From: Eleftheria terrae
GTDB lineage: Bacteria > Pseudomonadota > Gammaproteobacteria > Burkholderiales > Burkholderiaceae_C
Direction: 5' to 3'
Length of the DNA stretch: 64,000 nucleotides
Assembly: GCF_030419005.1 (NCBI RefSeq)
Contig: NZ_CP106951.1
Span: 1,674,001-1,738,000 of the forward strand
Of this stretch, positions 20,028 through 53,598 are shown piece by piece. The position numbers were made by a program, and so were the translations under genes. How positions within the stretch are numbered: the stretch's first letter is position 1; the number at the start of each line of letters is the position of its first letter. A model generated the notes under the pieces. The model searched no databases. It was given only the letters and a program-made list of their open reading frames with translations, and was not told the origin of the DNA.

Positions 20028-20066
20028 CCGCACCGGCCGCGCGCGTGGGCCGGCTCGCCAGCCCCG

Positions 20067-21344: not shown

Positions 21345-21695
21345 GTCTCGGTCATCCTCCTTGCGGAAGATTATCGAGGGGGGCCGACCCACCTCCGACC
21401 CGCTCCAGCGTGGGCTCGGCGGGCTGGCGGGCCGTCGCCGCGGCCCTCCGTCGAGCCGTTCACTTCACGAAGTGAAACCGCACCGCACATGGCGGCTGAT
21501 GCGCCACCACGGGTCAGACGCCACGCGCGCTCGACGCCGCGGCGGCGCCGCCCGGGTTCTGGATCCTTGCACTAGCAATGGCGCCGAGTCCATGGCGGGC
21601 ACCGTGGCCAGCCCGCGCTGCTGTGTCTTGGCGCAGCAAGATCACTGTGGCAGCGCCGTTCTCCGGTCGCGCCACCGCTTGCCGCCTGCACCTCG
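21345..21695. other. Non-coding stretch upstream of the DUF3422 gene
   Basis: About 350 bases between the DUF3422 start and the 87-aa gene. Several overlapping open frames exist but none has recognisable protein character. A promoter for the DUF3422 gene is expected in the first 100 bases but is not clear to me. Confidence 0.4.
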
Positions 21696-21959
21696 TCAAG
21701 AGCCGTTCGCGCTCGCGTTTCCAAAGAACGATGCGTAGAGCACTTCAAACGCGGGATAGGCCGGGTCCTGCACTCGCTGCGCTTCATACGCTCCGGCCAA
21801 TTCTCCAATCACACGGTCCATGTCCATCACTCGCTCGGACAGGCGCTCCTCCTCATCCTCCTCAGCAGAGATTTCCCCCAGCTTGCGTATCAGGCGCTGG
21901 CGTTCCCCCAACACAGACGAAATGGCAACAAACAGACTTTCGGTTGATAGTTCGTACAT
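21696..21959 (-). CDS. Small acidic coiled-coil protein, unknown function
   Basis: An 87-residue protein, MYELSTESLFVAIS to FFGNASANGS. It is acidic and helical with the cluster SAEEDEEERLSERVMDMD, and I do not recognise a family. The ribosome site GGAGGAGGG 7 nt before the ATG is among the strongest in the window, which supports a real gene. Base composition is visibly less GC-rich than the neighbours. Such small acidic proteins are often immunity proteins, and a fragmentary frame lies upstream, but nothing here proves a toxin pair. Confidence 0.55.
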   Translation of the reverse strand: MYELSTESLFVAISSVLGERQRLIRKLGEISAEEDEEERLSERVMDMDRVIGELAGAYEAQRVQDPAYPAFEVLYASFFGNASANGS

Positions 21960-22013
21960 GAATCATCCCTCCTCCGGCGTACCTTATTCCTCTGTTGCCT
22001 TCGCAGCCAGTCC

Positions 22014-22205
22014 CTATAGGTGCTGCAGGAAGAGGGACAGTGGCATGTCATCCTTCGGCGCCACGGTGTAATGAATAGGTGCTGAACTGGTCTTCACATA
22101 CTCGCCGATGCCGAGATTGCTTGCTGGCCCGGTGCCCGCGTTGCATATCCAAATGAAAACGCCTGCCAAGCAAAACGCTTGGCAGGCGGTCGGATCAGCA
22201 GGTTT
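22014..22205 (-). pseudogene. Possible C-terminal fragment of a longer protein
   Basis: A stop-to-stop frame of about 63 codons without a normal start codon. The readable end is GIGEYVKTSSAPIHYTVAPK followed by DDMPLSLFLQHL and a stop at 22014-22016. The composition looks like protein rather than random sequence, and its upstream part overlaps the tctA terminator hairpin, so it is probably a decayed remnant rather than an expressed gene. It could be the tail of a lost toxin or exported protein, which is inference. Confidence 0.3.
22160..22188 (-). terminator. Strong rho-independent terminator of the tctBA operon
   Basis: A 12-bp perfect stem (22160-22171 with 22177-22188) around a 5-base loop, followed on the minus strand by TTTTCATTT. 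It lies 71 bases after the tctA stop. Adenines on the other side could make it work for plus-strand transcripts too. Confidence 0.85.
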
Positions 22206-22258
22206 CTATGCTATTTGCAAGAGCGGCCCTTCTTCACGGCACGCCGGAGGGGCCGCTT

Positions 22259-23767
22259 TCAGTCAGCGTCCTGGAACGCCACCTCCCGCTTGCGGCGGAT
22301 GTTGGGCAGCAGCACGATGATGATCATCAGCCCTGCGGCGCCCAGCAGGCTGGCCGACAGCGGGCGGCTCACGAAGGTGCTCCAGTCGCCTCGCGACAGC
22401 AGCAGGGCCCGTCGCAGGTGCTCCTCCATCATCGGCCCCAGGATGAAGCCCAGCAGCAGCGGCGCCGGCTCGCAGCTCAGCTTGTAGAAGGCATAGCCGA
22501 CCACACCGAACAAGGCCGCCAGGTAGATGTGGAAGTTGTTGTTGTTCAGCGTGTAGAGCCCGATCGAGCAAAACACCAGGATGGCCGGGAACAGGAAACG
22601 GTAGGGCACCGTCAGCAGCTTGATCCAGATGCCGATCAGCGGCAGGTTCAAGATCACCAGCATCAGGTTGCCGATCCACATCGAGGCGATCAGGCCCCAG
22701 AACAGGTCGGGGTTGCTGGCCATCACCTGCGGGCCGGGCTGGATGCCCTTGATGGTCATCGCGCCCACCATCAGCGCCATCACCGGGTTGGGCGGGATGC
22801 CCAGCGTCAGCATCGGGATGAAGGAGGTCTGCGCACCGGCGTTGTTGGCCGACTCGGGGCCGGCCACGCCCTGGATGGCGCCCTTGCCGAACTGCTCGGG
22901 CGTCTTGGAGATCTTCTTCTCCAGCGTGTAGGCCGCGAAGGCCGACAGCAGGGCGCCGCCACCGGGCAGCACGCCCAGGATGGAGCCGAGCGCCGTGCCG
23001 CGCAGCACCGCCGGTGCGGCCAGGCGGAAGTCGTCACGGGTGGGCCACAGGCCCTTCACATCCTTGGTGAAGACCTCACGCGACTCGGACGGCTGGCCCA
23101 GGTTGGCGATGATCTCGCCGAAGCCGAACACGCCCATCGCAATGATGACGAAGTCGATGCCGTCGGTCAGCTCCGGGATGTCGAAGCTGTAGCGCGGCAC
23201 GCCGGAGATCACGTCGGTGTTGATCTGGCCCAGCAGCAGGCCGAGGATGATCATCGAGATGGCCTTCAGCAGCGAGCCCGAGGCCAGCACCACCGAGCCG
23301 ATCAGGCCCAGCACCATCAGCGAGAAATACTCGGCCGAGCCGAACTTGAAGGCCATCTCGGTCAGCGGCGGCGCAAAGGCAGCCAGCACCAGCGTGCCGA
23401 CCGAGCCCGCGAAGAACGAGCCCAGTGCCGCGGTGGACAGCGCGGCGCCAGCGCGGCCGCGACGGGCCATCTGGTAGCCGTCGATGGCGGTCACGACCGA
23501 GGACGACTCGCCCGGCACGTTGATCAGGATGGCGGTGGTGGAACCACCGTACTGGGCGCCGTAGTAGATGCCGGCCAGCATGATCAGCGCCGGCGTCGCG
23601 TCCAGCGAGTAGATCGACGGCAGCAGCATCGCGATCGTGGCCACCGGCCCGAGACCGGGCAGCACGCCGATCAGCGTGCCCAGCAGCGCACCGAGGAAGG
23701 CGTAGCCGACGTTCTGCAGCGTGGCGGCCGTCTGGAAGCCCAGGGCAAGATTGGAAAGCAGGTCCAT
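22259..23767 (-). CDS. tctA: Tripartite tricarboxylate transporter large permease TctA
   Basis: A 502-residue inner-membrane protein with about 12 hydrophobic segments. The TctA family marks are GLGPVATIAMLLPSIY, GIYYGAQYGGSTTAILINVP with GESSSV, and the later GVLPGGGALLSAF and TLGIPPNPVMALMVGAM. Together with TctB it forms the membrane part of a secondary transporter driven by an ion gradient and fed by a periplasmic binding protein (TctC). Substrates of the family include citrate, other carboxylates and aromatic acids. It follows tctB by 21 bases. No tctC is present in this window, so the binding protein must come from elsewhere. Confidence 0.93.
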   Translation of the reverse strand: MDLLSNLALGFQTAATLQNVGYAFLGALLGTLIGVLPGLGPVATIAMLLPSIYSLDATPALIMLAGIYYGAQYGGSTTAILINVPGESSSVVTAIDGYQMARRGRAGAALSTAALGSFFAGSVGTLVLAAFAPPLTEMAFKFGSAEYFSLMVLGLIGSVVLASGSLLKAISMIILGLLLGQINTDVISGVPRYSFDIPELTDGIDFVIIAMGVFGFGEIIANLGQPSESREVFTKDVKGLWPTRDDFRLAAPAVLRGTALGSILGVLPGGGALLSAFAAYTLEKKISKTPEQFGKGAIQGVAGPESANNAGAQTSFIPMLTLGIPPNPVMALMVGAMTIKGIQPGPQVMASNPDLFWGLIASMWIGNLMLVILNLPLIGIWIKLLTVPYRFLFPAILVFCSIGLYTLNNNNFHIYLAALFGVVGYAFYKLSCEPAPLLLGFILGPMMEEHLRRALLLSRGDWSTFVSRPLSASLLGAAGLMIIIVLLPNIRRKREVAFQDAD

Positions 23768-40415: not shown

Positions 40416-40506
40416 GGATTCCTGGAAGTTGGTCCGGCGAGCGACAAAAAAACGATCGACATTGTGCACCCGCCGCGGGCCTCCACCGCTCCCTCGCATC
40501 CATGAC

Positions 40507-40522
40507 AGGAACAGCCCTTGCT
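40507..40522 (+). promoter_or_regulatory. Putative sigma-54 promoter of the prion-like gene
   Basis: AGGAACAGCCCTTGCT: GG at 40508-40509 and GC at 40520-40521 are exactly ten bases apart and the -12 side is TTGCT, as for the sigma-54 consensus (TGGCACG-N4-TTGCW). Expected start of transcription is near 40533, 130 bases before the ATG. The -24 half is imperfect (GGAACA). Confidence 0.55.
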
Positions 40523-40662
40523 GAAATGCAGAGGCTGCGCGAACAGCCCGTGCCACGAGCACCGGGCCTGGCCGCCCCCCTGCAACGGTAAAGCGTACAC
40601 GGGCTTGCAGAAGCGCCGGCGCAGCAGGAGCAACGATTCCACAACGGTTGAAAGGAACGCAG

Positions 40663-41823
40663 ATGCAACAGCGAAACTATGGAGAGCAGCGTCGCAACGA
40701 GGGCAGCGACGACGACTATCGCGCCCGCAGCGACGAACGCTATGGCCAGGGCGACCGCTGGCAGCAGGATCGCTTCGGTTCGCAATCCCGCTCCGGGGGC
40801 CGCGACTACGAGTCGGCACGTAGCGGCGGAGGCTGGGGCAACGACTACGGCAGCAACGACCAGGGCAGTGACTACAGCGCAGGTCGCGGCTCGATGGGCG
40901 ACTACTACACCGGCGGCCAGCGCGGCAGCCAATACAGCACCGGCGGCTTCGCCGGCAACTACGGCTCGCAAGGCCCGCAAGGCGGCTCCCAGGGCTGGGA
41001 AGGCGCTCGCAGCGGCTGGGGCGGCCAGTATGAGGAAGGCGGTCCCAACCAGCGCGGTGGCCAGTTCCAGCAGGGCCGGCAGTACCAGGGCGGCCAGTAC
41101 CAGCAAGGCGGCAGCCAGTACGGCTCGCAAGGCGGCCAATACCAGGGCGGTGGCCAGTACGGCCAGCAGCAGGGAGGCCAGTACGGCCAGCAAGGCGGCT
41201 ATGGCGACCAGCAGGCCGGCCGCTATGCCAGCCAGTACGGCGGCTACGGCAGCGGCAGCAGTGGCGCAGGCTACGGCGGCGGCTATGCCGGGCAGGCGAA
41301 CTATCGCGGCGGCGGCTACGGCGGCCAGTCCTATGACGAGCACTCCAGCAACACCTATGGCCGCAACTACGGCGGCTCCGGCGAGCACGAGGGCTACACG
41401 CAGGGCATGCGCCACGCCGATCCCGACTACCACCAGTGGCGCATGGAGCAGATGCGCAGGCTCGACGAGGACTATCACCACTGGAGGCAGGAGCGCTACC
41501 GCAAGTTCTCCGACGAATTCGACCAGTGGCGCCAGGGCCGGCAGTCGGGCTCCAGCGGCCAAGGCAGCCAACAGATGGGCAGTTCCGGCATCGGCGGCTC
41601 CAGCGGCGCAACCACCGGGCTGAGCGGCAGTTCTTCGGGGCTCGGTGCTTCGTCCAACACCGCGAATGCCGGCAGCAGCGGCGCCGGCTCGACCGGCTCG
41701 GTCTCGGGCAGCAGCGGGCTGTCCGCCAGCACCGGCTCGGCCAGCAGCGACAGTGACCGCACCGGCAGTGGCAACAACGCCAGCAGCGGCTCCAGCTCCT
41801 CCGGCTCGTCCAAGTCGAAGTAA
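40663..41823 (+). CDS. Prion-like Gly/Gln/Tyr-rich low-complexity protein with conserved DYxxWR segment
   Basis: A 386-residue protein in three parts. Residues about 1-250 are Gly/Gln/Tyr/Ser-rich with repeated [12 protein letters not shown] and YG motifs, resembling prion-like (FUS-type) phase-separating proteins. Residues about 251-295 form a folded-looking, charged segment [23 protein letters not shown] (shortened here) with repeated DYxxWR and FSDEFDQWR. The rest is a Ser/Gly tail. There is no signal peptide. The C-terminal WR motif occurs in other beta-proteobacterial stress proteins (general knowledge, not checked). AAAGGAACG precedes the ATG at 40663. It is followed by a perfect terminator. 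Confidence 0.75.
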
Positions 41824-41849
41824 GCGGCCCATGCGCCGCCCGTGAACGA

Positions 41850-41879
41850 AACCGCCGGCACGAGGCCGGCGGTTCTCTT
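41850..41879. terminator. Bidirectional rho-independent terminator
   Basis: AACCGCCGGC (41850-41859) and GCCGGCGGTT (41865-41874) are perfect 10-base arms around ACGAG, followed by CTCTTGG. It separates the prion-like gene from the convergent rpoN gene. The minus-strand side has GGTTTCGTTC and can also serve rpoN. Confidence 0.8.
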
Positions 41880-41918
41880 GGTGGGTGGGAGGGGGTCCGG
41901 CAGCGGACCCGCAGCCCC

Positions 41919-43355
41919 TCAGACGTGCTTGCGGCGCTTTTCGACCGAGGGCAGGCGCATCATCTGGCGGTACTTGGTCACCGTGCGGCGCGCCACGCTC
42001 AGGCCCTGCCGGGCAAGCTGCCGGGCAATCTGCGCATCCGACAGCGGATCCATCGCATCCTCGGCCTCGATCATGTCCTTGATCACCCCCCGGATGGCGG
42101 TGGCCGAGCAGGACCCGCCGCTGACGGTCGGCAAGGCGCGCGAGAAGAAGTACTTCAACTCGAACACGCCCAGCGGCGTCGCCATGTACTTATTGTTGGT
42201 CACGCGGGACACGGTGGACTCGTGCAGGCCCAGTTCCTCGGCGATCTCGCGCAAGCCGAGCGGCTTCATCGCCAGCGCGCCGTATTCCAGGAAATGGCGC
42301 TGGCGCTTCACGATGGCCTGAGCCACATGCAGGATGGTGGCGAAGCGCTGCTCCACATTGCGCACTGTCCAGCGCGCCTCCTGCAAATGGGCGGCCAGCT
42401 CCGAATGGCCCGAGTCGCGATGGCGCTGGAACAACTCGGCATAGACCTGGTTGAGCCGCACCTTGGGGATCACGTCCGGGTTCAGCGTGGCGGTCCACAC
42501 GCCGCGCACCTTGCGCACGATGACGTCGGGCGTCACGAACTGGGTGTTGGACGGGCCGAAGCGCCAGCCCGGCCGCGGGTCGAGGTGGCGGATGCGTTCA
42601 CAGACGGCCTCGACCTGGGCGACGCTGGCGCCGAGGGCGCGGGCGAGGCCGTTGACGTCGCGGGTGGCCAGCCGGTCGAGGTGCTCGCCGACGATGCGGC
42701 ACGCCAGCTCCTGCTCGGCAGCGGGCTGGATGTCCTTGAGCTGCAGCAGCAGGCATTCGCGCACGTCGCGTGCACCGATGCCGCTCGGATCGAGCGACTG
42801 CACCAGCTTCAACGCCACGTTCATCTCGGTGTCGTCGGCCGGCGGCGAGCATTCGACCAGGCCCTGCAACTCCTCCAGCGTGAGGCGCAGGTAGCCGTCG
42901 TCGTCGAGGGCCTCGATGATGGTGCCCGCCAGGGTGCGGTCGCGTTGCGACAGCGGCATCACGTTGATCTGGCTGTGCAGGTGCTGGCGCAGCGAGATGT
43001 CGGCAGCCACCATCTCGACCAGGTCGAGGTCGCCGTCGCCCGTGCTGCCACGGCCCGAACCGCCACCGGCCGAGCCCCAGCTCTCGCGGTCCCAGGGGGT
43101 GTCGGCCGCCGGCGCGGTCACCGGCGTGACATCGGCCCAGGTCGGCACCGGCTCTACCGGCGCCGCCTCGGGAGTGGCGGCTGCCGTCGCGTGGGCGTCG
43201 CCGTCTTCCTCCAGGAAAGGATTGCTGCCGACGGCCTGGTTGACCTCCTGGGCAAAGTCGAGGGACGACAACTGCAGCAGGCGAACGGCCTGCTGCAGAC
43301 GAGGCGTCAGCGTCTGGTGTTGCCGGTGCTCAAGTCGAATGACCGGTGCGTTCAT
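41919..43355 (-). CDS. rpoN: RNA polymerase sigma-54 factor
   Basis: A 478-residue sigma-54 protein. Region I is RLEHRQHQTLTPRLQQAVRLLQLS (shortened), which should bind core polymerase and activator; it deviates from the usual MTPQL version. A Pro/Ala/Gly/Asp-rich region II spans about 51-118. The core-binding and -12 domain follows, and the C-terminus has the helix-turn-helix GLHESTVSRVTNNKYM and the RpoN box ARRTVTKYRQ that reads the -24 element. The ATG at 43355 has GGAGG. Its context is not the canonical lptAB-rpoN-hpf locus, so this may be a second copy dedicated to the local genes. A perfect sigma-54 promoter lies upstream, suggesting autoregulation. Confidence 0.9.
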   Translation of the reverse strand: MNAPVIRLEHRQHQTLTPRLQQAVRLLQLSSLDFAQEVNQAVGSNPFLEEDGDAHATAAATPEAAPVEPVPTWADVTPVTAPAADTPWDRESWGSAGGGSGRGSTGDGDLDLVEMVAADISLRQHLHSQINVMPLSQRDRTLAGTIIEALDDDGYLRLTLEELQGLVECSPPADDTEMNVALKLVQSLDPSGIGARDVRECLLLQLKDIQPAAEQELACRIVGEHLDRLATRDVNGLARALGASVAQVEAVCERIRHLDPRPGWRFGPSNTQFVTPDVIVRKVRGVWTATLNPDVIPKVRLNQVYAELFQRHRDSGHSELAAHLQEARWTVRNVEQRFATILHVAQAIVKRQRHFLEYGALAMKPLGLREIAEELGLHESTVSRVTNNKYMATPLGVFELKYFFSRALPTVSGGSCSATAIRGVIKDMIEAEDAMDPLSDAQIARQLARQGLSVARRTVTKYRQMMRLPSVEKRRKHV

Positions 43356-43797
43356 GCAGTCCTCCCGATGAAAGCCCCACGCCTTGCTCCGGCGGGTCGG
43401 TGGGGTTGCACATGTGAATGAGCAAGGATCGAAAACCAAAAAGACAGGCCGGCAACGCCCATCTTCCGCCGCTTTGGCTGTGAGAAACAGTGGCAAGCAT
43501 GAGCAGAAGGAGGACGCGGCACGACGGTGTACGGTGTTGGGTGAAGGGGCTCGCGCCAGGCGAACCCGGACCGGGGAACCAGGCGTGACAGCAAGCTGCA
43601 CGGTGTCCGGCCCTCGGGGTGCGTCCTCTTAGAGCAACCCCCGTGCCAGGCAATCGGGAACGGGTAGTCCATCGGTGTCGGCGTTACAAGAAGCCGCATA
43701 CCGCTACAAGACGCAGGAAACATCCCGCATCGCAAAATTGCGACGCCGCTTTCGGCACAGCGCGCTCACGCTGGGGTGATCGTGGCGCCCTGACGAG
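43356..43797. other. Intergenic region upstream of rpoN with regulatory elements
   Basis: About 440 bases without a supported gene. It holds the sigma-54 promoter at 43633-43649 and, about 90 bases upstream of it, an inverted repeat TCGCAA-AA-TTGCGA (43730-43743) that could be an activator site. I see no tRNA or small RNA signal. Confidence 0.5.
43633..43649 (-). promoter_or_regulatory. Sigma-54 promoter (perfect consensus) upstream of rpoN
   Basis: On the minus strand reads CTGGCACGGGGGTTGCT, an exact match to YTGGCACG-R-N3-TTGCW. It points toward rpoN; the expected start of transcription is near 43622 and the leader is about 270 bases. Confidence 0.75.
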
Positions 43798-44790
43798 TCA
43801 ATTCCGCACCAGTCTTAGCCTGGGCCGACCCGTAACGGGCGGTCGAGCGCAGGGCAAAGCCCGCGCCTGGACCTGCGACAAATCCTCTTTCGCGGGAACA
43901 AATTGTGCGCTTTGCCGCAATATCTGCTGAAACTCACCGGCGACACGGGGGTGTCTCAAGGCCTGCGCGAGGTTGGCTTCCAGCCATTTCGTGGGCCGCC
44001 GACAGTCGAACCGCCGGCCGCTGTAACGATAGGCAAACAACGGCTGTGTCAGAAGGACAGCGCCGAGCACGTCGCGCAAGTCGGCGGCGCGCAACACCGT
44101 GCGTTCAGCCTGCTGGGCGAGGGTGTCGAGCACACCGGGCGTCAGGATGCAGCGGCCGGCAGCCGCCCAGGCAGGCGCCTGCGTCGCTGCGATGCCCGCG
44201 CCCCGTCCGAGCCGGCGCACGCAAGCCAGGCGCACATCGCTGACGGCCGTCTCCACCATGACGTTGTGCGGGTCGTTGGCCGCGGCGGCCTCCACCGCCA
44301 CCAGGCTGCAGGGCGTGCGCTCGAACTGCCGCAACAGCTGCTGCAGCACGCCGGGCTCGCCGTCGGTCACTTCGGTGGGCAGCAGCAGGGCAAAGGCCTC
44401 GCCGCGCAGCAGATGGCGGGCGCCGAGCAGCCCGTGCGCGAGGCCGCGCTCGCCGCCTTGCCGCAGCAGGTGGGCTCGCACACCGCGCGGCAGCATCGAC
44501 ACCTCGAGGTCCAGTTGCTCATCGACCGGCCCGCGCGGGCCGTCCAGGACAAACAAGATCTCCTCGATGCCGGCCGCCAATGCCTCGGTCACCGCGTAGT
44601 GCAACAGCGGGCGGTCCACCACCGGCAGCATCTCGATCGGCAGGGCCTGCAGCGCGGGCCAGGCCACGGCCTGCTGCCCCACCGGGATGACCGCCTTGCG
44701 CACCCGGGGCTCGCCGCGGGGGGGAGCGGAATGCGGCCCTTCGGCGGCAGGAGTGCCGAGCAGCCGGCGCAAACAGGCAGGAAGTTTCAT
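43798..44790 (-). CDS. GalU-like nucleotidyltransferase with lost nucleotide-binding motif
   Basis: A 330-residue protein with clear GalU (UTP-glucose-1-phosphate uridylyltransferase) ancestry: KAVIPV, then LPIEMLPVVDRPLLHYAVTEALAAGIEEI. But the glycine-rich loop that should read GxGTR is GQQAVAW at residues 38-44, and the nearby Lys of TKAIPKEM is gone (LQALPIEM). Later blocks are also reduced. I infer a pseudoenzyme with a regulatory or binding role, or an altered reaction. The ATG at 44790 overlaps the stop of the 85-residue gene by four bases, and the gene is read toward rpoN, so all three may share one transcript. Confidence 0.75.
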   Translation of the reverse strand: MKLPACLRRLLGTPAAEGPHSAPPRGEPRVRKAVIPVGQQAVAWPALQALPIEMLPVVDRPLLHYAVTEALAAGIEEILFVLDGPRGPVDEQLDLEVSMLPRGVRAHLLRQGGERGLAHGLLGARHLLRGEAFALLLPTEVTDGEPGVLQQLLRQFERTPCSLVAVEAAAANDPHNVMVETAVSDVRLACVRRLGRGAGIAATQAPAWAAAGRCILTPGVLDTLAQQAERTVLRAADLRDVLGAVLLTQPLFAYRYSGRRFDCRRPTKWLEANLAQALRHPRVAGEFQQILRQSAQFVPAKEDLSQVQARALPCARPPVTGRPRLRLVRN

Positions 44791-45044
44791 GAACGACCGC
44801 TCTTGAGCTGCTCGCGGTAGACCTTGTCGGTGACGGCACCGCGGTCGGTATCGACCAGGCCGCGCTCCACATCGTCGTGGGCTTGCTGCATCACCTCGTC
44901 CTGCTCGGGGCGCTGCTGGTCCTGGCTGTCGGCCGACTCGTCGCGCTCGTGCGGCATCCGGGGCAGGCGGCGCTGTGCGGCGTTGGCGGTGGTGTCTCCG
45001 GTGCGGGTGCGCTGGCCGGTATCGCTCGGGCGGGAGGTGGACAT
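44787..45044 (-). CDS. Small hydrophilic protein, unknown function
   Basis: An 85-residue protein, highly charged, with the recognisable conserved core MQQAHDDVERGLVDTDRGA and a TDKVYREQLKSG tail. It has no hydrophobic segment. Small proteins with this core are, to my memory, found in similar Burkholderiales clusters; I do not know a function. The ribosome site GAGGAG precedes ATG 45044, and its stop overlaps the GalU-like start. A sigma-54 promoter lies 32-48 bases upstream. Confidence 0.7.
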   Translation of the reverse strand: MSTSRPSDTGQRTRTGDTTANAAQRRLPRMPHERDESADSQDQQRPEQDEVMQQAHDDVERGLVDTDRGAVTDKVYREQLKSGRS

Positions 45045-45075
45045 GCTGGGCTCCTCGAATAGGTGTTGCGTGTCC

Positions 45076-45092
45076 GGCAAGGCGCGTGCCGC
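45076..45092 (-). promoter_or_regulatory. Sigma-54 promoter of the 85-aa/GalU-like operon
   Basis: On the minus strand reads GCGGCACGCGCCTTGCC: GGCACG, four bases, TTGC, with correct -24/-12 spacing. Expected start of transcription is near 45065, about 20 bases before the ATG at 45044. Confidence 0.7.
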
Positions 45093-45148
45093 GAGGAGCG
45101 GCTGGTGGCTTGCCTGGCCTGGCGGGCTGGCGCGGGGCCGTGGCGGCG

Positions 45149-45164
45149 AGGAACACCGTTTGCT
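45149..45164 (+). promoter_or_regulatory. Sigma-54-like promoter of the hemerythrin operon
   Basis: AGGAACACCGTTTGCT: GG at 45150-45151 and GC at 45162-45163 are ten bases apart and the -12 side is TTTGCT. Same -24 half (GGAACA) as the prion-like promoter. The expected transcript start near 45174 lies about 39 bases before the ATG. Confidence 0.55.
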
Positions 45165-45212
45165 GACCGGTGCTTGACTCATCCCCGCCCGTCCGACCAA
45201 GGAGTACCGTCC

Positions 45213-45818
45213 ATGACCACCCGCAATTCAAGCGCCAGAGCCGAAGTCATCGAGATGCTGAAGGAGGACCACAAGCGGGTGAAGAAGGCCTTCCGCGATT
45301 TCTCCAAGCTCGATCCCGAAAACGATCCGCAAGCCTGCCAGCAGCTGGCCGACCAGATCTGCACCGATCTGCAATTGCACGCCCGCCTTGAGGAAGAGGT
45401 GTTCTACCCAGCCGCCCGCAGCGGCATGGACGAGCCCGAGCTGATCGAGGAGGCCGAGGTCGAGCACGCCTCGGCCAAATGGCTGATCGAGCAGCTGCGC
45501 ACGATGTCGCCCGACAACCCGCGCTTCGCGGCCACGGTGACGGTGCTGGGCGAGTACGTGAAGCACCATATCAAGGAGGAAGAAGGCGACATCTTCGAGA
45601 AGCTGAGCCGCTCGCGCATCGAGTGGGAGGCCCTGCTTGAGGAGATGCACGAGCGCCGCACCGAGCTGATGGTCGAGATGGGCCTGGCGGCCCCGGCCGA
45701 GGAGGCCGCCAACGACGAAGCCGACAGCGGCGAGGAAGCCGAGTCTTTCGATGGGGCGCACGCCCAGGGCGGCTCACGCTCGGGCCGGGGCGAGTCCTCC
45801 CACAAGGCCGCCCGCTGA
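45213..45818 (+). CDS. Hemerythrin-domain protein
   Basis: A 201-residue protein. The four-helix hemerythrin domain has likely diiron ligands His20, His56, Glu60, His85, His118 or His119 and Glu123 (KEDHKR, LHARLEEE, EHASAKW, KHHIKEEE). Bacterial single-domain hemerythrins bind O2 or store/repair iron and protect from oxidative or nitrosative stress. The last 50 residues are an acidic low-complexity tail. The ATG at 45213 has AAGGAG upstream. It is the first gene of the operon that continues with the large fusion gene 20 bases downstream. Confidence 0.85.
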   Translation: MTTRNSSARAEVIEMLKEDHKRVKKAFRDFSKLDPENDPQACQQLADQICTDLQLHARLEEEVFYPAARSGMDEPELIEEAEVEHASAKWLIEQLRTMSPDNPRFAATVTVLGEYVKHHIKEEEGDIFEKLSRSRIEWEALLEEMHERRTELMVEMGLAAPAEEAANDEADSGEEAESFDGAHAQGGSRSGRGESSHKAAR

Positions 45819-45838
45819 AAGCCGCCGCCCCGCCGCCC

Positions 45839-48800
45839 ATGTCCGGCTCGCCCTGGCCCAGCGCCGAGCAGGCCCGACTGCTGCAGGAAGGCGCCTGCAA
45901 CTGCCCCGCGCTGGCCTCCTTCTGGATGGGCGGCTTCGAAGGGGCTGACCACCGCAATGGCCGCGGCGAGCCGCTGGACATGGTCCGCAGCACGGGCCAC
46001 CTGCAACGGCTGGAGGCCGACTACGCCAGCCTGGCCCGCTGGGGCCTGCGCGGCGCGCGGGAGAGCATCGGCTGGCGCCTGTCGGAGGGCGCCGGTGGCC
46101 GCATCGACCTGGCACGCACCCAGCGGGTGGCGGAGGCGGCTCGCCGCCACGGTGTCCAGCCCCTGTGGACCCTCATGCACTACGGCATGCCGGCCGACGT
46201 CGACATCTTCGACGACCGCTTCATCGCCCGGTTCGTTCGCTTTGCCGAGGCGGTGGCGCGCACGCTGAAGCCGCTGTCCGAGCTGCCCCCGATCTACACA
46301 CCGATCAACGAGATCAGCTTCCTGGCCTGGGCCGTCAGCGAGACGTCGATGATGGCTCCCTACCTGAACGGAGACGCCGCCCGGGCCGACAGCACCCGGG
46401 CCAGCGGCTACGCCGTCAAGCGCCGCCTGGTGCGGGCCGCCCTGGAGGCGATGCAGGCCATGCGAGCCATCGATGGGCGTGCCCGCTTCATGCATGTCGA
46501 GCCGGTGCTGCACGTGGTGGCGCCGGCGGACCGGCCGGACCTGCAGGGCCTGGCGGCGGAGGTGCGCGGCTACCAGTGGCAAACCTGGGACCTGTTGGCC
46601 GGCCGGATGGAGCCGGAGCTGGGCGGCCACGAGGCGGCGCTCGACCTGCTGGGCCTGAACCACTATCACAACGGACAGTGGGAGGTCGGCACCGAGCGTC
46701 GCCTGCACTGGCACTTGCGTGACCCACGTCGTCTGCCCTTCGGCTCGCTGGTGCGCGAGACCTGGGAACGCTACCGCCATCCGATGATCGTGGCAGAAAC
46801 GAGTCATGTCGGTGTCGGGCGCGGCCAGTGGCTGCATGAGATGGCCACCGAGGCGGCCCGTGTGCGCGCCGCCGGCATCCCGCTCGAAGGGCTGTGCCTC
46901 TATCCAATCGTCGACCGCCACGACTGGGACGACCCCACCCATTGGCACAACAGCGGCCTGTGGGACGCCGCGCCGCCGGACACCCCCCTGCCGGCCGGCT
47001 GTGCACCGGGGCGCGTGCTCAACCGGCCCTATGCCCGTGTACTCAGACGCTGGCAACGCCAGCTGCCAGCCTGCACCACCGAAGGAAGCCCCAAGATGTC
47101 TCGACCCTGCCTGCTCGTCTTCTCGCACCTGCGCTGGGACTTCGTCTACCAGCGCCCGCAGCACCTGCTGTCGCGACTCGCACAGCAGTACCGCGTGCTG
47201 GTCGTCGAGGAGCCGGTGCACGATGCCGGGCTGCCGCACCTGGAATGTTTCCGCCCCTGCGAGGGGGTGGAGGTGCTGCGGCCGCACACGCCGGTGGAGG
47301 CCGCCGGCTTCCATGACGACCAGCTGCCAGTGCTCAAGCCCCTGGTGCAGCGGCACATCGAGGCCCATGGCATCGACAACTACCTGGTGTGGTTCTACAC
47401 GCCGATGGCGCTGCCGCTGCTCACCGGCCTGCAGCCGCGAGCGGTGATCTACGACTGCATGGACGAGTTGTCGGCCTTCAAGTACGCGCCGCGGCAGATG
47501 CGCCAGCGCGAATCGGCCCTGATGAAGACCGCCGACCTGGTCTTCACCGGCGGCCCCAGCCTGTATGAGGCCAAGCGCGAGCAGCATCCGCAGGTGCACT
47601 GTTTCCCGAGTGCGGTCGATGCACAGCATTTCGCACCCGGCTCCGCGCTGGCCGATCCGGCACATGCGGCGGCCGCCGAGCAGTTGCAATCGCACCTCCC
47701 CTCGCCCCGGCTCGGCTTCTTCGGCGTGATCGATGAGCGACTCGACGTGGAACTGGTGGCAGCCCTGGCCGATGCCCGGCCGGACTGGCAGCTGGTGATG
47801 GTCGGCCCGGTGGTGAAGATCGACCCTGCGCACCTGCCTCGCCGCGCCAACATCCACTGGCTGGGGCAGCAGTCGTACGCCCGGCTGCCGGCGCTGGTGG
47901 CCGGTTGGGACGTCTGCCTGCTGCCCTTCGCGCTCAACGAGTCGACGCGCTTCATCAGCCCGACCAAGACGCTCGAGTACATGGCGGCGGAAAAGCCGGT
48001 GGTCAGCACGCCAATCCACGACGTGGTCAGCCTGTACGGCGACGTGGTGCGCGTCGGTGCCGACCGACAGGCCTTCATCGACGCCTGCGTCGCCGCACTC
48101 GGCGAAACGCCGGCGCAACGCCAGGAGCGGGTGGTCGCGATGTCGGCCGTGGTGGCCCGGCTTTCGTGGGACAGCACCGCAAAGTCCATCGGCCGGCTCA
48201 TCGCCGACGCCCTGCAGCGGCGCACGGTGGCGACCGCCGGCCAACCGGCCGCAACAGCGGCCGCCTCCCTGCCGACCCCTGCCGTGCCGCTCGCCCCGGG
48301 CTCCGCCGCGGCAGCGAGCGCCGCGACCCCCGCGGTGCGTGCGGTGCGCCATGTGGTGATCGGCGCCGGGCCGACCGGCCTGGCGGCCGCCTACCACCTG
48401 GGTGGCGACACGCTGCTCGTCGAGCGCGAGGCCCGCGTTGGCGGCGGCTGCCGGTCCACCGAGGAAAACGGCTTCACCTTTGGCAACGCCGGGCATGTGA
48501 TGTTTTCCGAAGACCCGGAGGTGCATGCGCTCTACAGCAAGCTGCTGGGCGACAACCTGCACTGGCAGACCGTCCGGGCGGCGGTGCACCGCGATGGCTG
48601 CCTGGCGCCCTTCCCGCTGGCCGGTGCACACCACGGCCTGCCGCCGGACGTATTGAAGGAGCAGCGCCGCCCGAGCGCCAGCACTCGCTTCGGCTATCCG
48701 CTGCGCGGTGGCTTCCAGGCCTTGATGGAGGCCTTCCTGCCTCACCTGCAAGCGCAGCTCTCGCTGAATACGCGGGTGGTCCATGTGTCGCCTTCACAAC

Positions 48801-49441
48801 GCACGCTGCGGCTGGACGACGGCCGGACCCTGCAGTACGAAACCCTGGTCAGCACCATGCCGCTGCCACAACTGGTGGCCGCGTGCGGCAATGAAGCACC
48901 GCCCGAGGTGCAGGCGGCCGCCCGCGGGCTGCGCCATCTGTCGGTGCGCTGCATCAACCTGGGCGTGGACCGGGCGGCCCTGACCGACCAGCACTGGATC
49001 TACTACCCCGAAGGCACCGTCTTCGACCGCGTCTTCGCGCAGGGCAACGCCAGCCCGCATTGCAGCCCGCCGGGCGGCTTCGGCCTGACCTGCGAGATCG
49101 GCTACGGCCCCGGCCGCCCCTTGCCTTGCGACGGCCCGGCGTTGCTGGAGCGGGTGGTGGCCGACTGCCGTCGTGTCGGCCTGCTGCGGGAGGACGATCG
49201 CCTGCTCGCCAGCAGCCAGGTCGACCTGCCGGGCGCCTGGCTGGTGCACGATGCCGCACAGGCAGGCCAGCTCGCGCTGGTGCGCCAGTGGCTGGGCCAG
49301 TTCGGCATCGTGCTGGCCGGACGCTACGGCGAATGGGCCCACGACCATGCGGAACATGCCTTCGTGGCCGGCCGCCGGGCGGCCCAGCAGGCCCTGGCGC
49401 GCAGCGGCGCAGCGGCACAGACCATCGCCAAGGCGGGGTGA
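45839..49441 (+). CDS. Trimodular fusion: GH1-like glycosidase, GT-B glycosyltransferase, FAD-dependent oxidoreductase/mutase
   Basis: A 1200-residue single open frame. Residues about 1-410 resemble a glycoside hydrolase family 1 enzyme, with the acid/base in TPINE (E158) and a candidate nucleophile in VAETSHVG (E320). Residues about 420-790 form a GT-B glycosyltransferase, with WDFVYQRPQHLL at the start and ESTRFISPTKTLEYMA near the donor site. A Pro/Ala linker (797-835) leads to an FAD Rossmann domain, VVIGAGPTGLAAAYHLGG (839-856), in the UDP-galactopyranose mutase/amine-oxidase style. An internal ATG at 47096 with GGAAG upstream could start a separate GT-FAD polypeptide. The modules point to synthesis and trimming of an unknown glycoside or glycan. 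Confidence 0.78.
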   Translation: MSGSPWPSAEQARLLQEGACNCPALASFWMGGFEGADHRNGRGEPLDMVRSTGHLQRLEADYASLARWGLRGARESIGWRLSEGAGGRIDLARTQRVAEAARRHGVQPLWTLMHYGMPADVDIFDDRFIARFVRFAEAVARTLKPLSELPPIYTPINEISFLAWAVSETSMMAPYLNGDAARADSTRASGYAVKRRLVRAALEAMQAMRAIDGRARFMHVEPVLHVVAPADRPDLQGLAAEVRGYQWQTWDLLAGRMEPELGGHEAALDLLGLNHYHNGQWEVGTERRLHWHLRDPRRLPFGSLVRETWERYRHPMIVAETSHVGVGRGQWLHEMATEAARVRAAGIPLEGLCLYPIVDRHDWDDPTHWHNSGLWDAAPPDTPLPAGCAPGRVLNRPYARVLRRWQRQLPACTTEGSPKMSRPCLLVFSHLRWDFVYQRPQHLLSRLAQQYRVLVVEEPVHDAGLPHLECFRPCEGVEVLRPHTPVEAAGFHDDQLPVLKPLVQRHIEAHGIDNYLVWFYTPMALPLLTGLQPRAVIYDCMDELSAFKYAPRQMRQRESALMKTADLVFTGGPSLYEAKREQHPQVHCFPSAVDAQHFAPGSALADPAHAAAAEQLQSHLPSPRLGFFGVIDERLDVELVAALADARPDWQLVMVGPVVKIDPAHLPRRANIHWLGQQSYARLPALVAGWDVCLLPFALNESTRFISPTKTLEYMAAEKPVVSTPIHDVVSLYGDVVRVGADRQAFIDACVAALGETPAQRQERVVAMSAVVARLSWDSTAKSIGRLIADALQRRTVATAGQPAATAAASLPTPAVPLAPGSAAAASAATPAVRAVRHVVIGAGPTGLAAAYHLGGDTLLVEREARVGGGCRSTEENGFTFGNAGHVMFSEDPEVHALYSKLLGDNLHWQTVRAAVHRDGCLAPFPLAGAHHGLPPDVLKEQRRPSASTRFGYPLRGGFQALMEAFLPHLQAQLSLNTRVVHVSPSQRTLRLDDGRTLQYETLVSTMPLPQLVAACGNEAPPEVQAAARGLRHLSVRCINLGVDRAALTDQHWIYYPEGTVFDRVFAQGNASPHCSPPGGFGLTCEIGYGPGRPLPCDGPALLERVVADCRRVGLLREDDRLLASSQVDLPGAWLVHDAAQAGQLALVRQWLGQFGIVLAGRYGEWAHDHAEHAFVAGRRAAQQALARSGAAAQTIAKAG

Positions 49442-49445
49442 GGCG

Positions 49446-50396
49446 ATGATCATCGATGCCCATGTGCACTGCACCGGCCAGGAGCGCAGCGGCGACGTGC
49501 TGCGATCGCTCGACGATGCCGGCATCGACATGGCGGTGTTGCTGGCCCCCTTCCTCAGCGAAGGCTATTCGCTGGAAGACCCCGAATCGCTGCGCCGCGG
49601 CAATGCGGGGTTGGCCCGGCTGGTGAAGGGCCACGAAGACCGGCTGATCGGCTTCGCGGTGCTCGATCCGCGCCGCGCCGACGCACCCGACGACCTGCAG
49701 CGCGCCTATGACCAGGGCCTGCGCGGCATCAAGATGGTGCCCGCCGGCTGGTATCCGTATGACGAGCAGGTGCAGCCGCTGTTCGCCAAGGCGCACGAGC
49801 TCAAGATGCCGCTGCTGTTCCACAGTGGCATCTTCATCGATGGCCGCTCGGGCCGCTTCTGCCGGCCAACCTTCTTCGAAGCGCTGCGCGACTACCCCGG
49901 ACTCAAGGTGGCGCTGGCCCACCTGGGCTGGCCCTGGACCGATGAAGCCATCGCCGTCGGCCTGATCGAGCTGATCCACGGCGTGGCGCCCGACCAGGTG
50001 ATGTTCCGCTTCGACATCTCCTTCGGACCGCCGCCGGTGTACCGGCGCGAGGTGCTGTCCAAGGCCCTCAGCGTGCTGGGCCCCGACCTGCTGCAGTTCG
50101 GTAGCGACTGCTTTCTGCCCTGCAGCGGCGCCCACATTGCCGAGCGCCGAGGCTGGGTGGAAGACCTGCTGGACGAGCTGGACGTCGACGCTCGCGGCCG
50201 CGAGCGCATCTGGAGCGGCACCGCTGCGGCCTGGCTGGGCCTTGACGCAGCGGATGCGGCACGCCGTGCCGCGCAGGCCCGCGAGCGTGCACCGGCAGAA
50301 GCCGCCACCCTGGGCGTGGCGACCCGCCGCCTGTTCACTTCCCTCCTTGGTGGGGACCAAGGCCGCCCGCCCGGCCTGGCCCCCGTGTGCTGCTGA
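49446..50396 (+). CDS. Amidohydrolase 2 family (ACMSD-like) hydrolase
   Basis: A 316-residue metal-dependent hydrolase/decarboxylase. The metal site is DAHVH (H6, H8), FHSG (H126), LAHLGW (H159) and FGSDC (D221). This is the PF04909 group, which includes ACMSD and decarboxylases of aromatic acids. The ATG at 49446 follows the fusion gene by four bases, so it is cotranscribed, and its C-terminus overlaps the next gene. Which substrate it acts on in the operon is unknown; a released aglycone or acid is possible. Confidence 0.82.
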   Translation: MIIDAHVHCTGQERSGDVLRSLDDAGIDMAVLLAPFLSEGYSLEDPESLRRGNAGLARLVKGHEDRLIGFAVLDPRRADAPDDLQRAYDQGLRGIKMVPAGWYPYDEQVQPLFAKAHELKMPLLFHSGIFIDGRSGRFCRPTFFEALRDYPGLKVALAHLGWPWTDEAIAVGLIELIHGVAPDQVMFRFDISFGPPPVYRREVLSKALSVLGPDLLQFGSDCFLPCSGAHIAERRGWVEDLLDELDVDARGRERIWSGTAAAWLGLDAADAARRAAQARERAPAEAATLGVATRRLFTSLLGGDQGRPPGLAPVCC

Positions 50397-50425
50397 TTGC
50401 AGCGTCCTCAGCCTCCCAGCGACCC

Positions 50426-51676
50426 ATGGCACCACTGCAAACCACTCCGCGGACCCATGTCCTGCAGATCGTCGGCAACGCGATCGTCGGCGGCATGGAG
50501 ACCTATGTGTCCCGCCTGATCGAGCGGCTGCCGCGGGAACGCTTCCGCGTCACCGTGCTGTGCCCCTGGGAGAGCTCGATCAGCGAGCAACTGCGCACCA
50601 CCGGCACCGAGGTGATGGTGGTGCCGATGCCGGACGACCCGCCGTGGGCATCGATCCAGACCACCAGCGCGCTGATCCGGGCGCACGGGGTCGACGTCAT
50701 CCAGGCGCACCTGCCCAATGCGCACCTGCTGGCCGCCGTGGCCGGCCACCTGACGCACACACCGGTGCTGGCCACCATCCACGGCCGGCAGCTGCAGGTG
50801 GCCGACCTGGAGGCGCACCGCCTGGCCGGCACCCATCTCAGCGTGGTCTGCAAGTACACCTACTACCACGCGCTGACCCTGGGCGTCGCTGCGCCGCAGC
50901 TGCACCTCATTGCCAATGGCGCCGACCTGCAGGTGTTCCGTCCGCGGCGGGTGCGCGACGGCGCACTGCGGCAGCGCTTCGGCATTGCGGCCGACGTGCC
51001 GCTGGTGGGCTTCGTCGGCCGCCTGTCCTGGGAGAAAGGACCCGAGAGCTTCTTGCGCGCCGCCTTGATCGCACACCGCCGCTGCCCGCAAGCGCGCTTC
51101 GTGCTCGTGGGCGACGGCCCGATGGCGCAGCAGTGCGCCAGCTTCATCGACAGCTTCGGCATGGGCGACTACACGCACCTGGCCGGGCTGCAGTCGGACA
51201 TGCCGGCGGTGTTTGCCGAGCTGGACCTGGTGGTCTCGACCTCGCACACCGAGGCCATGCCGCTGGCCCTGATGGAAGCCATGGCCAGTGGCCTGCCGGT
51301 GGTGGCGACCCGGGTGGGTGGCGTGCCGGACATGGTGCAGCACGGCCTCACCGGTGCGCTGGTGAGCCCGGGCGATTTCGACGGCGTCGGCGCCCAGATC
51401 GCGAAGCTGCTGGAAGCGCCGGACACCCGCGAAGCCATGGGCCGGCGGGCGCGCGAGCGCGCCGAGCAGCACTTCGACCTGGCAGAAGGGGTGGCCGCCA
51501 CCGGCGAATTGCTGGCCCGGCTGGCGCAGGCCAATCCGCAGCGCGCGCTGAGCAGCCGGCCGCTGGCGGAAGCGGCACCGGTGCCGGCGCCGGCACGCAG
51601 CGCCGCCAACGGCCATGCGGCCGCCGGCCATGCTGGCACCGGCCGGCGTGCGCCCCGCAAGCAGGTGGGCGTCTGA
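50426..51676 (+). CDS. GT4-family glycosyltransferase
   Basis: A 416-residue GT-B glycosyltransferase. Family 4 marks are GNAIVGGMETYV near the N-terminus (glycine-rich loop), GFVGRLSWEKGPESF and the donor-site E-x7-E in TSHTEAMPLALMEAMASGLPVVAT. It would transfer a sugar from a nucleotide donor to a growing chain or lipid. The last 60 residues are Ala/Pro-rich and low-complexity. Start is uncertain: ATG 50426, or GTG 50387, which would overlap the preceding gene. It is the last gene of the hemerythrin operon before a separate promoter. Confidence 0.84.
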   Translation: MAPLQTTPRTHVLQIVGNAIVGGMETYVSRLIERLPRERFRVTVLCPWESSISEQLRTTGTEVMVVPMPDDPPWASIQTTSALIRAHGVDVIQAHLPNAHLLAAVAGHLTHTPVLATIHGRQLQVADLEAHRLAGTHLSVVCKYTYYHALTLGVAAPQLHLIANGADLQVFRPRRVRDGALRQRFGIAADVPLVGFVGRLSWEKGPESFLRAALIAHRRCPQARFVLVGDGPMAQQCASFIDSFGMGDYTHLAGLQSDMPAVFAELDLVVSTSHTEAMPLALMEAMASGLPVVATRVGGVPDMVQHGLTGALVSPGDFDGVGAQIAKLLEAPDTREAMGRRARERAEQHFDLAEGVAATGELLARLAQANPQRALSSRPLAEAAPVPAPARSAANGHAAAGHAGTGRRAPRKQVGV

Positions 51677-51680
51677 GGAG

Positions 51681-51697
51681 CAGGCACGCTGGTTGCG
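51681..51697 (+). promoter_or_regulatory. Sigma-54 promoter of the BON lipoprotein gene
   Basis: CAGGCACGCTGGTTGCG: GGCACG, four bases, TTGC, correct spacing; the first T of the consensus is A and the last base is G. Expected start of transcription is near 51708, about 48 bases before the ATG at 51756. Confidence 0.7.
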
Positions 51698-51755
51698 TTC
51701 TCTCTGGCGTTCGCGGCACGGGCCGCAACGGTTTATCAACACCAAGGAGCCCCCT

Positions 51756-52076
51756 ATGAAGAAGCTTTTCGTCGCCAGCATGATCGCCACGGCAGGCCTG
51801 ATGGCCATGACCGGTTGCGCTGTCACCAGCGGTCAGAGTTCGGTCGGCGAGTACGTCGATGACGCCACCGTCGCCACCCGGGTGAAGACGAAGTTCGCCA
51901 CCGACCCAGGCGTGAGCGCCGCCCGCATCCAGGTGGAGGTGCAGGACGGCACGGTGCAGCTGGCCGGCTTTGCCACCAGCGAAGCCGAGCGCGCCAAGGC
52001 CGCCGAGCTCGCTCGTGAGGTCCCGGGGGCCAAGAGCGTGCGCAACAACATCATCGTGAAGCCGGCCGACAAGTAA
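51756..52076 (+). CDS. BON-domain lipoprotein
   Basis: A 106-residue exported lipoprotein: MKKLFVASMIATAGLMAMTG and a lipobox Cys at about 21. The rest is a single BON domain (DDATVATRVKTKFATDP to VRNNIIVKPADK), the OsmY/DolP type fold that binds phospholipids and supports envelope integrity under stress. CCAAGGAGC precedes the ATG. The gene has its own sigma-54 promoter and stands between the operon and the regulator gene. Confidence 0.88.
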   Translation: MKKLFVASMIATAGLMAMTGCAVTSGQSSVGEYVDDATVATRVKTKFATDPGVSAARIQVEVQDGTVQLAGFATSEAERAKAAELAREVPGAKSVRNNIIVKPADK

Positions 52077-52170
52077 GCCGCCCACGCACGGGGCCGGATC
52101 CGACCCGCCGCTGCGTCTGTAAATCGCACAGCAATTCCGACCGGCCCCCCTTTTCACCAGCCGACCTCGC

Positions 52171-53598
52171 ATGCCCCACGTCCTCATCGTCGACGATTCG
52201 CCTGATGAACTTGGGTGGATGAGCGAAGTGGCCCAAGCCGAAGGTTGCACCGTCGCCACCGCCGACTCGCTGCGTGCCGCGCGGGTCCAGCTGGTACGCC
52301 AGCAGCCGGAGGTGCTGCTCACCGACATCCAGCTGCCCGACGGCAACGGCTTGCAGCTGGTGCGCGAGCTCGAGGCGCCGGCGCAAACGGAAGTGGTGGC
52401 CATCACCGGCCACGCCTCGGTGGACAGCGTGGTGGAGGCCTTGCGCCTCGGCGCCACCGACTACCTCGTCAAGCCCATCGACATCGAGCGCTTGCGCGCC
52501 ATCCTGAAGCGCCAGCCCGAAGCGGCCGAACTGCGCCACGAAATCGGCGAGCTGCGTGGCGAGCTGCGCAAGGCCGGCCGCTTCGGCCTGCTGCTGGGCG
52601 CCTCGCCTGCGATGCAATCGCTCTATGACAAGCTGGCCCGTGTGGCCCCGACCTCGGCCACCGTGCTGCTGATCGGCGAGAGTGGCACCGGCAAGGAGCT
52701 GGCGGCGCGCACGCTGCACGACTTGAGCCGGCGCAAGCGCTGCCCCTTCCTCGCGGTGAACTGCGGCGCCATCTCTCCCCAGCTGATCGAAAGCGAGCTG
52801 TTCGGGCACGAGAAAGGCAGCTTCACCGGCGCGGACCGCCAGCACATCGGCTTCTTCGAACGTGCCAATGGCGGCACGCTGCTGCTCGACGAAGTGACGG
52901 AGATGCCGCTGGAGCTGCAGGTCAAGCTGCTGCGCGTGCTGGAGACCGGCAGCTTTGCCCGGGTCGGCACCACCCAGCTGATCTCGACGGACGTGCGCAT
53001 GGTGGCAGCGACCAACCGGCTGCCGGAGAAGGCGGTGGCCGAGGGCCGCTTCCGCGAGGATCTCTACCACCGCCTGAACGTCTTCCCGGTGGTGCTGCCG
53101 CCGCTGCGCGACCGCGGCACCGACATCGAGTTGCTGGCCCAGCACTTCCTGGACGAGCTGAACCGGCAGGAAGGCACCAGCAAGAGCTTCTCGCCGCAGG
53201 CCATCGCCCGGCTCTACGAGCACAGCTGGAGCGGCAATGTCCGCGAGCTGCGCAACCATGTGCAGCGGGCCTTCATCCTGTCGGATGACATCGTCGAGAC
53301 CGCCGATGCCGGCGATGCGCCGATGGACACTGGACCGGGCGACGTCATCAGCATCCGCATCGGCACCCCGCTCGACGAGGTGGAGCGCCGCGTCACCATG
53401 GCCACGCTGGAGCGCTGCGGCCAGGTCAAGCGCAAGACGGCCGAGGTGCTGGGCATCAGCCTGAAGACCCTCTACAACCGGCTCGAGGTCTATTCGATGA
53501 AGGACCAAACGCGCGAGGACGGCAACCCGCCGCTGCCGCGCCACCGTCCGCCCCCGCCGCGCAGCCGTGACGCGGGCGGCGGCACCCACAAGCACTGA
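52171..53598 (+). CDS. NtrC-family sigma-54-dependent response regulator
   Basis: A 475-residue activator. The receiver domain has the phospho-acceptor Asp52 (LLTDIQLP) and Lys101 (YLVKPID). The AAA+ domain has Walker A GESGTGKE (169-176), the sigma-54 contact loop GSFTGA (216-221, a GAFTGA variant) and Walker B TLLLDE. The C-terminus has a Fis-type helix-turn-helix (MATLERCGQVKRKTAEVLGI), then a Pro/Arg tail. It should activate sigma-54 promoters from an upstream site. No sensor kinase is next to it, and it lies 95 bases after the BON gene. I infer it controls the block with the local RpoN. Confidence 0.9.
   Translation: MPHVLIVDDSPDELGWMSEVAQAEGCTVATADSLRAARVQLVRQQPEVLLTDIQLPDGNGLQLVRELEAPAQTEVVAITGHASVDSVVEALRLGATDYLVKPIDIERLRAILKRQPEAAELRHEIGELRGELRKAGRFGLLLGASPAMQSLYDKLARVAPTSATVLLIGESGTGKELAARTLHDLSRRKRCPFLAVNCGAISPQLIESELFGHEKGSFTGADRQHIGFFERANGGTLLLDEVTEMPLELQVKLLRVLETGSFARVGTTQLISTDVRMVAATNRLPEKAVAEGRFREDLYHRLNVFPVVLPPLRDRGTDIELLAQHFLDELNRQEGTSKSFSPQAIARLYEHSWSGNVRELRNHVQRAFILSDDIVETADAGDAPMDTGPGDVISIRIGTPLDEVERRVTMATLERCGQVKRKTAEVLGISLKTLYNRLEVYSMKDQTREDGNPPLPRHRPPPPRSRDAGGGTHKH

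Follow-up and report, generated by a model that had tools for sequence, protein, structure and literature searches.

A second sigma-54 gene, NtrC-type activators and conserved -24/-12 promoters at the probable hub of a stress regulon in Eleftheria terrae

The window analysed here is a 64,000-nucleotide stretch of the 7.03-Mb genome of Eleftheria terrae (G000:C2:1674001-1738000), in which a 13.2-kb block (window positions 40416-53598) gathers a sigma-54 gene, the gene of a sigma-54-dependent activator and five -24/-12 promoter elements. The genes of the block were predicted with our own gene caller, trained on the E. terrae genome, and positions are those of the window unless contig C2 is named. 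The sigma-54 gene (41919-43355, minus strand), which its Pfam domains and a tree identify as a second one in this genome and which we call rpoN2, lies where the original prediction had placed an rpoN; its product carries Sigma54_AID, CBD and DBD domains that all exceed the Pfam cut-offs, and its RpoN box reads RRTVTKYRQ. The activator, EBP1 (52171-53598, plus strand), had also been located correctly and matches Response_reg, Sigma54_activat and Fis HTH models. It thus has the receiver, AAA+ and DNA-binding parts of an NtrC-type activator, with a loop that reads GSFTGA and not the GAFTGA that had been announced. Two more specific identities were rejected, as EBP1 stays below the cut-offs of both the nitrogen regulator NtrC (TIGR01818, 373.8 vs 558.6 bits) and the PEP-CTERM regulator PrsR (TIGR02915, 355.1 vs 502.6 bits). 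No kinase gene lies within the block.

The five promoter elements are all present, intergenic and oriented into local genes, with the following start codon at 31-277 bp. Two of them read AGGAACA-N4-TTGCT and lie on the plus strand, one at 40507-40522 (score 13.5), 140 bp before the gene of a Q/G/Y/S-rich protein, the other at 45149-45164, upstream of a hemerythrin gene. The three others contain GGCACG-N4-TTGC exactly, as predicted, within coordinates that had been drawn one base too wide: TGGCACGGGGGTTGCT (43633-43648, minus strand), 277 bp upstream of rpoN2; CGGCACGCGCCTTGCC (45076-45091, minus strand), upstream of a gene for an 85-aa protein; and AGGCACGCTGGTTGCG (51682-51697, plus strand), upstream of a BON-domain gene. 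The last differs by a single base from AGGCACGCTGTTTGCG, found in a second island described below. The position of the element before rpoN2 suggests regulation of this gene by its own product or by RpoN1, the ordinary sigma-54.

These five -24/-12 sites are real. They have the GG-N10-GC core of sigma-54 promoters, and a scan of the 1251 non-coding bp of the block, with a matrix whose weights approximate the consensus, gave five sites, where 1000 dinucleotide shuffles gave 0.091 on average and at most 2. In the whole block, the same scan found five sites, for an average of 1.22 and a highest count of 5 among 300 shuffles. A lax scan of the window (TGGCACGNNNNTTGCW, up to two mismatches) showed no excess, with six matches for 16 expected, and the loose motif alone is therefore uninformative. 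Furthermore, all five elements are kept in Aquabacterium sp. A7-Y, the nearest named relative by its regulator (89% identical) among the best 80 of at least 571 matches. The site at 40507 is conserved there at 16/16 bases, those at 43633, 45076 and 51682 at 15/16 each and that at 45149 at 14/16. Divergence of the flanks is clearest at 40507 and 43633, and some flanking bases are also kept near 45149 and 51682. In Caldimonas tepidiphila (L058), no counterpart of the site at 40507 was found at the same place.

The other genes of the block are of diverse kinds. The first element precedes the gene (40663-41823, plus strand) of a 386-aa Q/G/Y/S-rich, "prion-like" protein with a conserved W/Y/R core, which has no Pfam or NCBIfam match and for which the core retrieved three homologs, one of them in Caldimonas thermodepolymerans. 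On the minus strand lie the gene of a GalU-like nucleotidyltransferase (43798-44790; 102.7 bits, under the NCBIfam galU cut-off of 326.8) and that of the small hydrophilic 85-aa protein (44787-45044), which belongs to no family and has a homolog with a site in A7-Y. The hemerythrin HHE protein (45213-45818, plus strand), identified by its domain, is followed 20 bp later by a 1200-aa open reading frame (ORF; 45839-49441, plus strand), probably on the same transcript, that combines GH1-like (below the Pfam cut-off), glycosyltransferase and amine-oxidase/FAD parts. In C. tepidiphila (L058), a 429-aa gene starts at the glycosyltransferase part of this ORF, so that the long form is either a fusion or the product of a wrong start. 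Domain matches identify an amidohydrolase (Amidohydro_2; 49446-50396) and a glycosyltransferase of family 4 (50426-51676) further along the plus strand. The BON-domain protein (51756-52076, plus strand) resembles the OsmY model below its cut-off (57.6 vs 174 bits).

The original prediction was to be refuted by an equal density of sites throughout the genome, which is not what the exact motif shows: it occurs three times in the 13.2 kb of the block, against 41 occurrences in 7.03 Mb (Poisson P 7e-5). Contrary to what had been proposed, however, the block is not self-contained, since 38 of the 41 exact sites lie outside it and a second island exists elsewhere. What stands is the presence in one place of a sigma-54 gene, an activator and conserved promoters, in a block that is only a part of a dispersed set. 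Genome-wide, the 41 exact sites compare with 16 for the reversed pattern; 34 are intergenic, and in 29 cases a gene in the right orientation starts within 450 bp, 22 of these 29 being outside a 224-kb stretch. Eight exact sites, some of them in that second island, fall within 84 kb (C2:1717634-1801802; P 5e-8, for a stretch picked after the sites were known). Family matches in the set of 29 targets include hemerythrin, CBS, PagL, MdoG, short-chain dehydrogenases/reductases (SDRs), glgC-like and glgB-like enzymes, LOG-type, RtcB and PrkA proteins, some of these names being our own assignments; a number of small targets match no family. The output of the block, which had been considered unknown, is not wholly so: judging from their gene content, the targets appear to form a programme for general stress, glycogen and the envelope.

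The second island (C2:1772-1807 kb; L037-L039, L292) is located outside the window, about 45-79 kb past the end of the block. It encodes a PLD-domain protein, MscS, DUF378, DUF4142, topoisomerase IB, PRC-barrel, DUF421 and lipocalin proteins, a weak DUF883 match, a holin-X-domain protein and a transglycosylase-associated protein that we take to be GlsB-like. It also holds a nine-gene glycosyltransferase/carbamoyltransferase cluster with an exact sigma-54 site upstream of the first gene. Moreover, this island encodes a second activator, EBP2, which is 58% identical to EBP1 and has the loop GAFTGA, and two hybrid PAS kinases. The gene of HK2 immediately precedes that of EBP2, and HK1, which carries a dCache sensor domain, is encoded some 7 kb from it.

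Both islands are retained in A7-Y, where exact sites number 45 (32 intergenic) against nine for the reversed pattern; C. tepidiphila has 38 (30 intergenic) against nine. Among the 29 targets, 16 have a homolog bearing an exact intergenic site in A7-Y (about 15 after division of the SDR superfamily) and six in C. tepidiphila (about three, the clear orthologs, after the same division). For instance, an exact site lies 146-149 bp before prkA (yeaG type) at L027, in A7-Y (L182) and in Caldimonas (L212). A YghA-like SDR was sought in 60 genomes and matched in 24, of which the 11 closest (at least 59% identity) were taken as orthologs. A relaxed site, a pattern expected 0.04 times per 300 bp, is upstream of this gene in 7/8 activator-bearing genomes and in 1/3 others. 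The other 13 genomes (45-54% identical) were kept out of this count; in the seven whose start was readable (it was not in six), the site is upstream in 2/4 activator-bearing genomes (one at 332 bp) and in 1/3 others (at 581 bp). These counts are suggestive only of a dependence of this target on the activator.

Relatives of the activator in named genomes number at least 571, of which the best 80 loci were examined (L057-L136; 1.54 Mb in total). Most of these belong to Burkholderiales and a few to other groups; they are not independent, as they include 16 Cupriavidus and 16 Achromobacter loci. These loci contain 158 exact sites against two reversed ones; 148 are intergenic, a count that is approximate as the caller misses genes in some loci. 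Exact sites are found in 64/80 loci, and 72 of them in 48 loci outside Cupriavidus and Achromobacter. A full-length rpoN (more than 380 residues, shorter pieces being dropped) is present in 37/80 loci. The same association appears in whole genomes: 29 out of 300 genomes of the order have a long activator match (best E of at most 3e-144, against 4.4e-118 for the best genome left out; G179 is matched over residues 1-387 only). At least two sigma-54 DNA-binding-domain matches, which do not always mean two genes, occur in 22 of these 29 genomes against 11/271 others (Fisher 1.8e-19, from counts compiled by hand and with kinship ignored).

An independent island of Burkholderia multivorans (L291, deposited annotation) combines the same kinds of genes. 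In a 33-kb stretch, rpoN2 lies with genes for BON, SDR, DUF4142, DUF892, UdgX, PRC, CBS, Ku, LigD, PfpI and treY proteins. Although just 10% of this DNA is non-coding, 13 of its 15 relaxed sites fall between genes, at 35-120 bp from the gene that follows. The RpoN of L291 forms a pair, in the tree, with the one encoded at an activator-bearing locus of B. multivorans (L104), and it is through L104 only that L291 is linked to the activator. The Ku and LigD genes of non-homologous end joining (NHEJ) lie inside this island (18430-22296), and genes that look similar by eye occur in an Achromobacter locus (L092).

RpoN2 and RpoN1 are clearly separated. A maximum-likelihood tree was built from 53 sequences, 39 RpoN2 (that of E. 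terrae, those of the 37 loci and that of L291) and 14 RpoN1 (that of E. terrae and those of 13 genomes of the order chosen among the best-scoring domain matches). A single branch with support 100/99 divides the two sets in this unrooted tree, which has no distant outgroup. When drawn from its midpoint, RpoN2 falls in more than one group, with L093 nearest to RpoN1. Hence, RpoN2 is not claimed to be a clade, and RpoN1 may be nested among RpoN2; long branches are those of L130, L135, L093 and L071. In 39/39 RpoN2, the RpoN box reads RRTV[ST]KYR and the next residue is never E, against RRTVAKYRE in 14/14 RpoN1. Furthermore, a relaxed sigma-54 site is found within 400 bp upstream of 34/37 rpoN2 genes and of 1/14 rpoN1 genes; for other genes of the same loci the figure is 304/1111, which reflects the density of the islands.

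The search for a shared activator-binding site gave one candidate and several rejected signals. The top signal in 184 promoters of the 80 loci is the reverse complement of the site itself, resulting from divergent promoter pairs. Such close pairs are frequent in L057-L136, where the reverse complement of the GGCA-N6-TTGC core is upstream in 58/184 promoters against 52/833 background regions, and they also occur in E. terrae, as at C2:1772620/1772644 and 1780058/1780083. A GTAA-N3-TTAC repeat was traced to a few Cupriavidus loci only. The palindrome TTGCSGCAA, located 40-215 bp upstream in 15/185 promoters of other genera against 6/827 background regions, is a candidate enhancer; it was found at L060, L066, L073, L095, L106, L107, L110, L130, L132, L134 and L135.

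We regard the block as the hub of a sigma-54-dependent stress regulon having its own sigma factor, encoded by a second rpoN, and NtrC-type activators, and we put the probability of this reading at about 0.72. In the mechanism that we propose, RpoN2 would sit at the -24/-12 promoters and stay inactive until remodelled by phosphorylated EBP1 and EBP2. We infer that these activators serve these sites, that the phosphate most likely comes from the pair of hybrid PAS kinases encoded in the second island and that stress is the inducer. Besides rpoN2 itself, which would form a positive loop, the switch would activate the hemerythrin-glycan operon, genes of small stress proteins and of envelope proteins, and about 20 genes scattered over the genome that concern glycogen, redox enzymes or maintenance of the envelope. 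A relay from RpoN1 to rpoN2 and on to the stress genes can be envisaged if the RpoN2 of Ralstonia solanacearum belongs to the RpoN2 group.

Several observations weigh against this proposal. No shared enhancer was found in E. terrae by a dyad search of 33 of its own promoters against 275 background regions, and the candidate palindrome occurs in 0/34 promoters there, in 0/32 in A7-Y and in 2/30 in Caldimonas. An excess of sites across the genome had to be discarded as a marker of the system, as it is also seen in genomes that lack the activator (G178, 32 vs 2; G283, 35 vs 1). Conversely, some activator-bearing genomes have no excess (G039, 14/14; G118, 16/20; G100, 17/23). Some genes of the B. 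multivorans island have no site of their own. Exact sites also precede prkA, mdoG and rtcB, where they may be under other activators, and the genome of E. terrae also encodes rpoS (424.7 bits for a cut-off of 378.7).

Other observations concern the sigma factor itself. No rpoN2 was detected within 10 kb in any of the 16 Cupriavidus loci, all of which have an activator pair and 15 of which have sites, and 7/29 activator-bearing genomes have a single rpoN. RpoN1 is therefore probably able to do the job. This is the basis of an alternative in which the regulon exists and is read by the ordinary RpoN1, RpoN2 being a nearly redundant copy that only tunes it. A promoter dialect specific to RpoN2 was looked for at the base after TTGC and rejected: C or G follows in 434/705 sites of 22 genomes with the activator and a second rpoN, against 98/167 in five single-rpoN genomes picked for their high site excess. 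Furthermore, in R. solanacearum, rpoN2 expression needs rpoN1 and no tested trait required rpoN2, according to the part of the publication available to us (PMC4371752). The separation of RpoN2 from RpoN1, with an RpoN box altered in every RpoN2, nevertheless argues against mere redundancy, as do the location of rpoN2 with the activators, the same kind of promoter upstream of it and the strong co-occurrence. Hence, we regard this alternative as unlikely, and RpoN2 rather than RpoN1 would be the main reader of these promoters.

Another view, in which ordinary sigma-54 promoters that depend on many unrelated activators would cluster near rpoN2 by coincidence, without any single regulon, is quite improbable. 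The 17 strong sigma-54 activator-domain matches of the genome, the sites before prkA, mdoG and rtcB and the lack of a detected shared enhancer in E. terrae are compatible with this view, but not the enrichment of 158 against two around one activator family in many genera, nor the independent B. multivorans island. Finally, chance matches in GC-rich DNA, with which the deficit of matches in the lax scan and the whole-block count equalled by at least one of 300 shuffles would agree, are refuted as an explanation because of conservation (5/5 in A7-Y) and intergenic placement, no non-coding shuffle out of 1000 having reached the observed count.

General stress programmes are usually credited to factors of the sigma-70 family, which need only to bind. 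The sigma-S, sigma-B and EcfG responses control similar kinds of target genes from -35/-10 promoters; here, the promoters are of the -24/-12 type and require an ATP-driven activator. In the Burkholderia cepacia complex, Agnoli et al. reportedly described in 2014 stress tolerance conferred by the third replicon. Multiple rpoN genes are known, for instance in Rhodobacter sphaeroides and Xanthomonas campestris (RpoN2), where a second sigma-54 also serves a subset of promoters; from the excerpts available, those systems concern flagella or single-base promoter differences, whereas in E. terrae stress, glycogen and envelope targets surround the rpoN gene (PMC3162934). The nearest precedent that we found in print is RpoNp of the Bradyrhizobium sp. 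DOA9 megaplasmid, a second sigma-54 that falls in a distinct clade of the published tree and to which its authors give a role in stress adaptation. That strain is an alphaproteobacterium, the regulon predicted for RpoNp is small (22 targets) and the text examined contains no activator-linked stress island (PMC13207237).

Within Burkholderiales, R. solanacearum has a second sigma-54 that is 44% identical to its RpoN1. Its transcription, which requires rpoN1, rises in minimal medium, and the sections consulted assign no function to it; we liken it to RpoN2 by its description, outside the tree (PMC4371752). In the related genus Aquincola, the A. tertiaricarbonis strain studied has four rpoN paralogues and the NtrC-type regulator PrsR of the PrsK/PrsR pair acts with RpoN at surface genes, those of PEP-CTERM proteins, in the portion of the paper at hand (PMC9850573). 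EBP1 differs from PrsR in staying under the cut-off of its model. A sigma-54 activator, BP2158, appears in Bordetella pertussis, also from a partial text (PMC11722255). Among the open-licence papers listed by our searches, none describes the regulon proposed here. Its parts are of known kinds. What those papers do not show is their combination, in which a general-stress-like regulon, spread across Burkholderiales, is centred on a dedicated second sigma-54 that has its own activators.

In many bacteria of soil and water that are related to Burkholderia, a spare sigma-54 and its own activators appear to switch on a large set of stress-survival genes. We would give even odds to a broader proposal, that of a sigma-54-based general stress response parallel to RpoS and present throughout Burkholderiales, with a dedicated and probably self-regulating RpoN2 group and a pair of NtrC-type activators, spreading as stress islands together with NHEJ and compatible-solute genes. 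If true, such a programme would be all-or-none, with no leak in the absence of the ATP-driven activator, and would receive kinase input. It would also give the second rpoN genes of Burkholderiales a function, which might extend to that of R. solanacearum, for which none is given in the part of its description available (PMC4371752). Furthermore, dozens of uncharacterised small stress genes would be grouped as one regulon, which could be tested by deleting a single gene.

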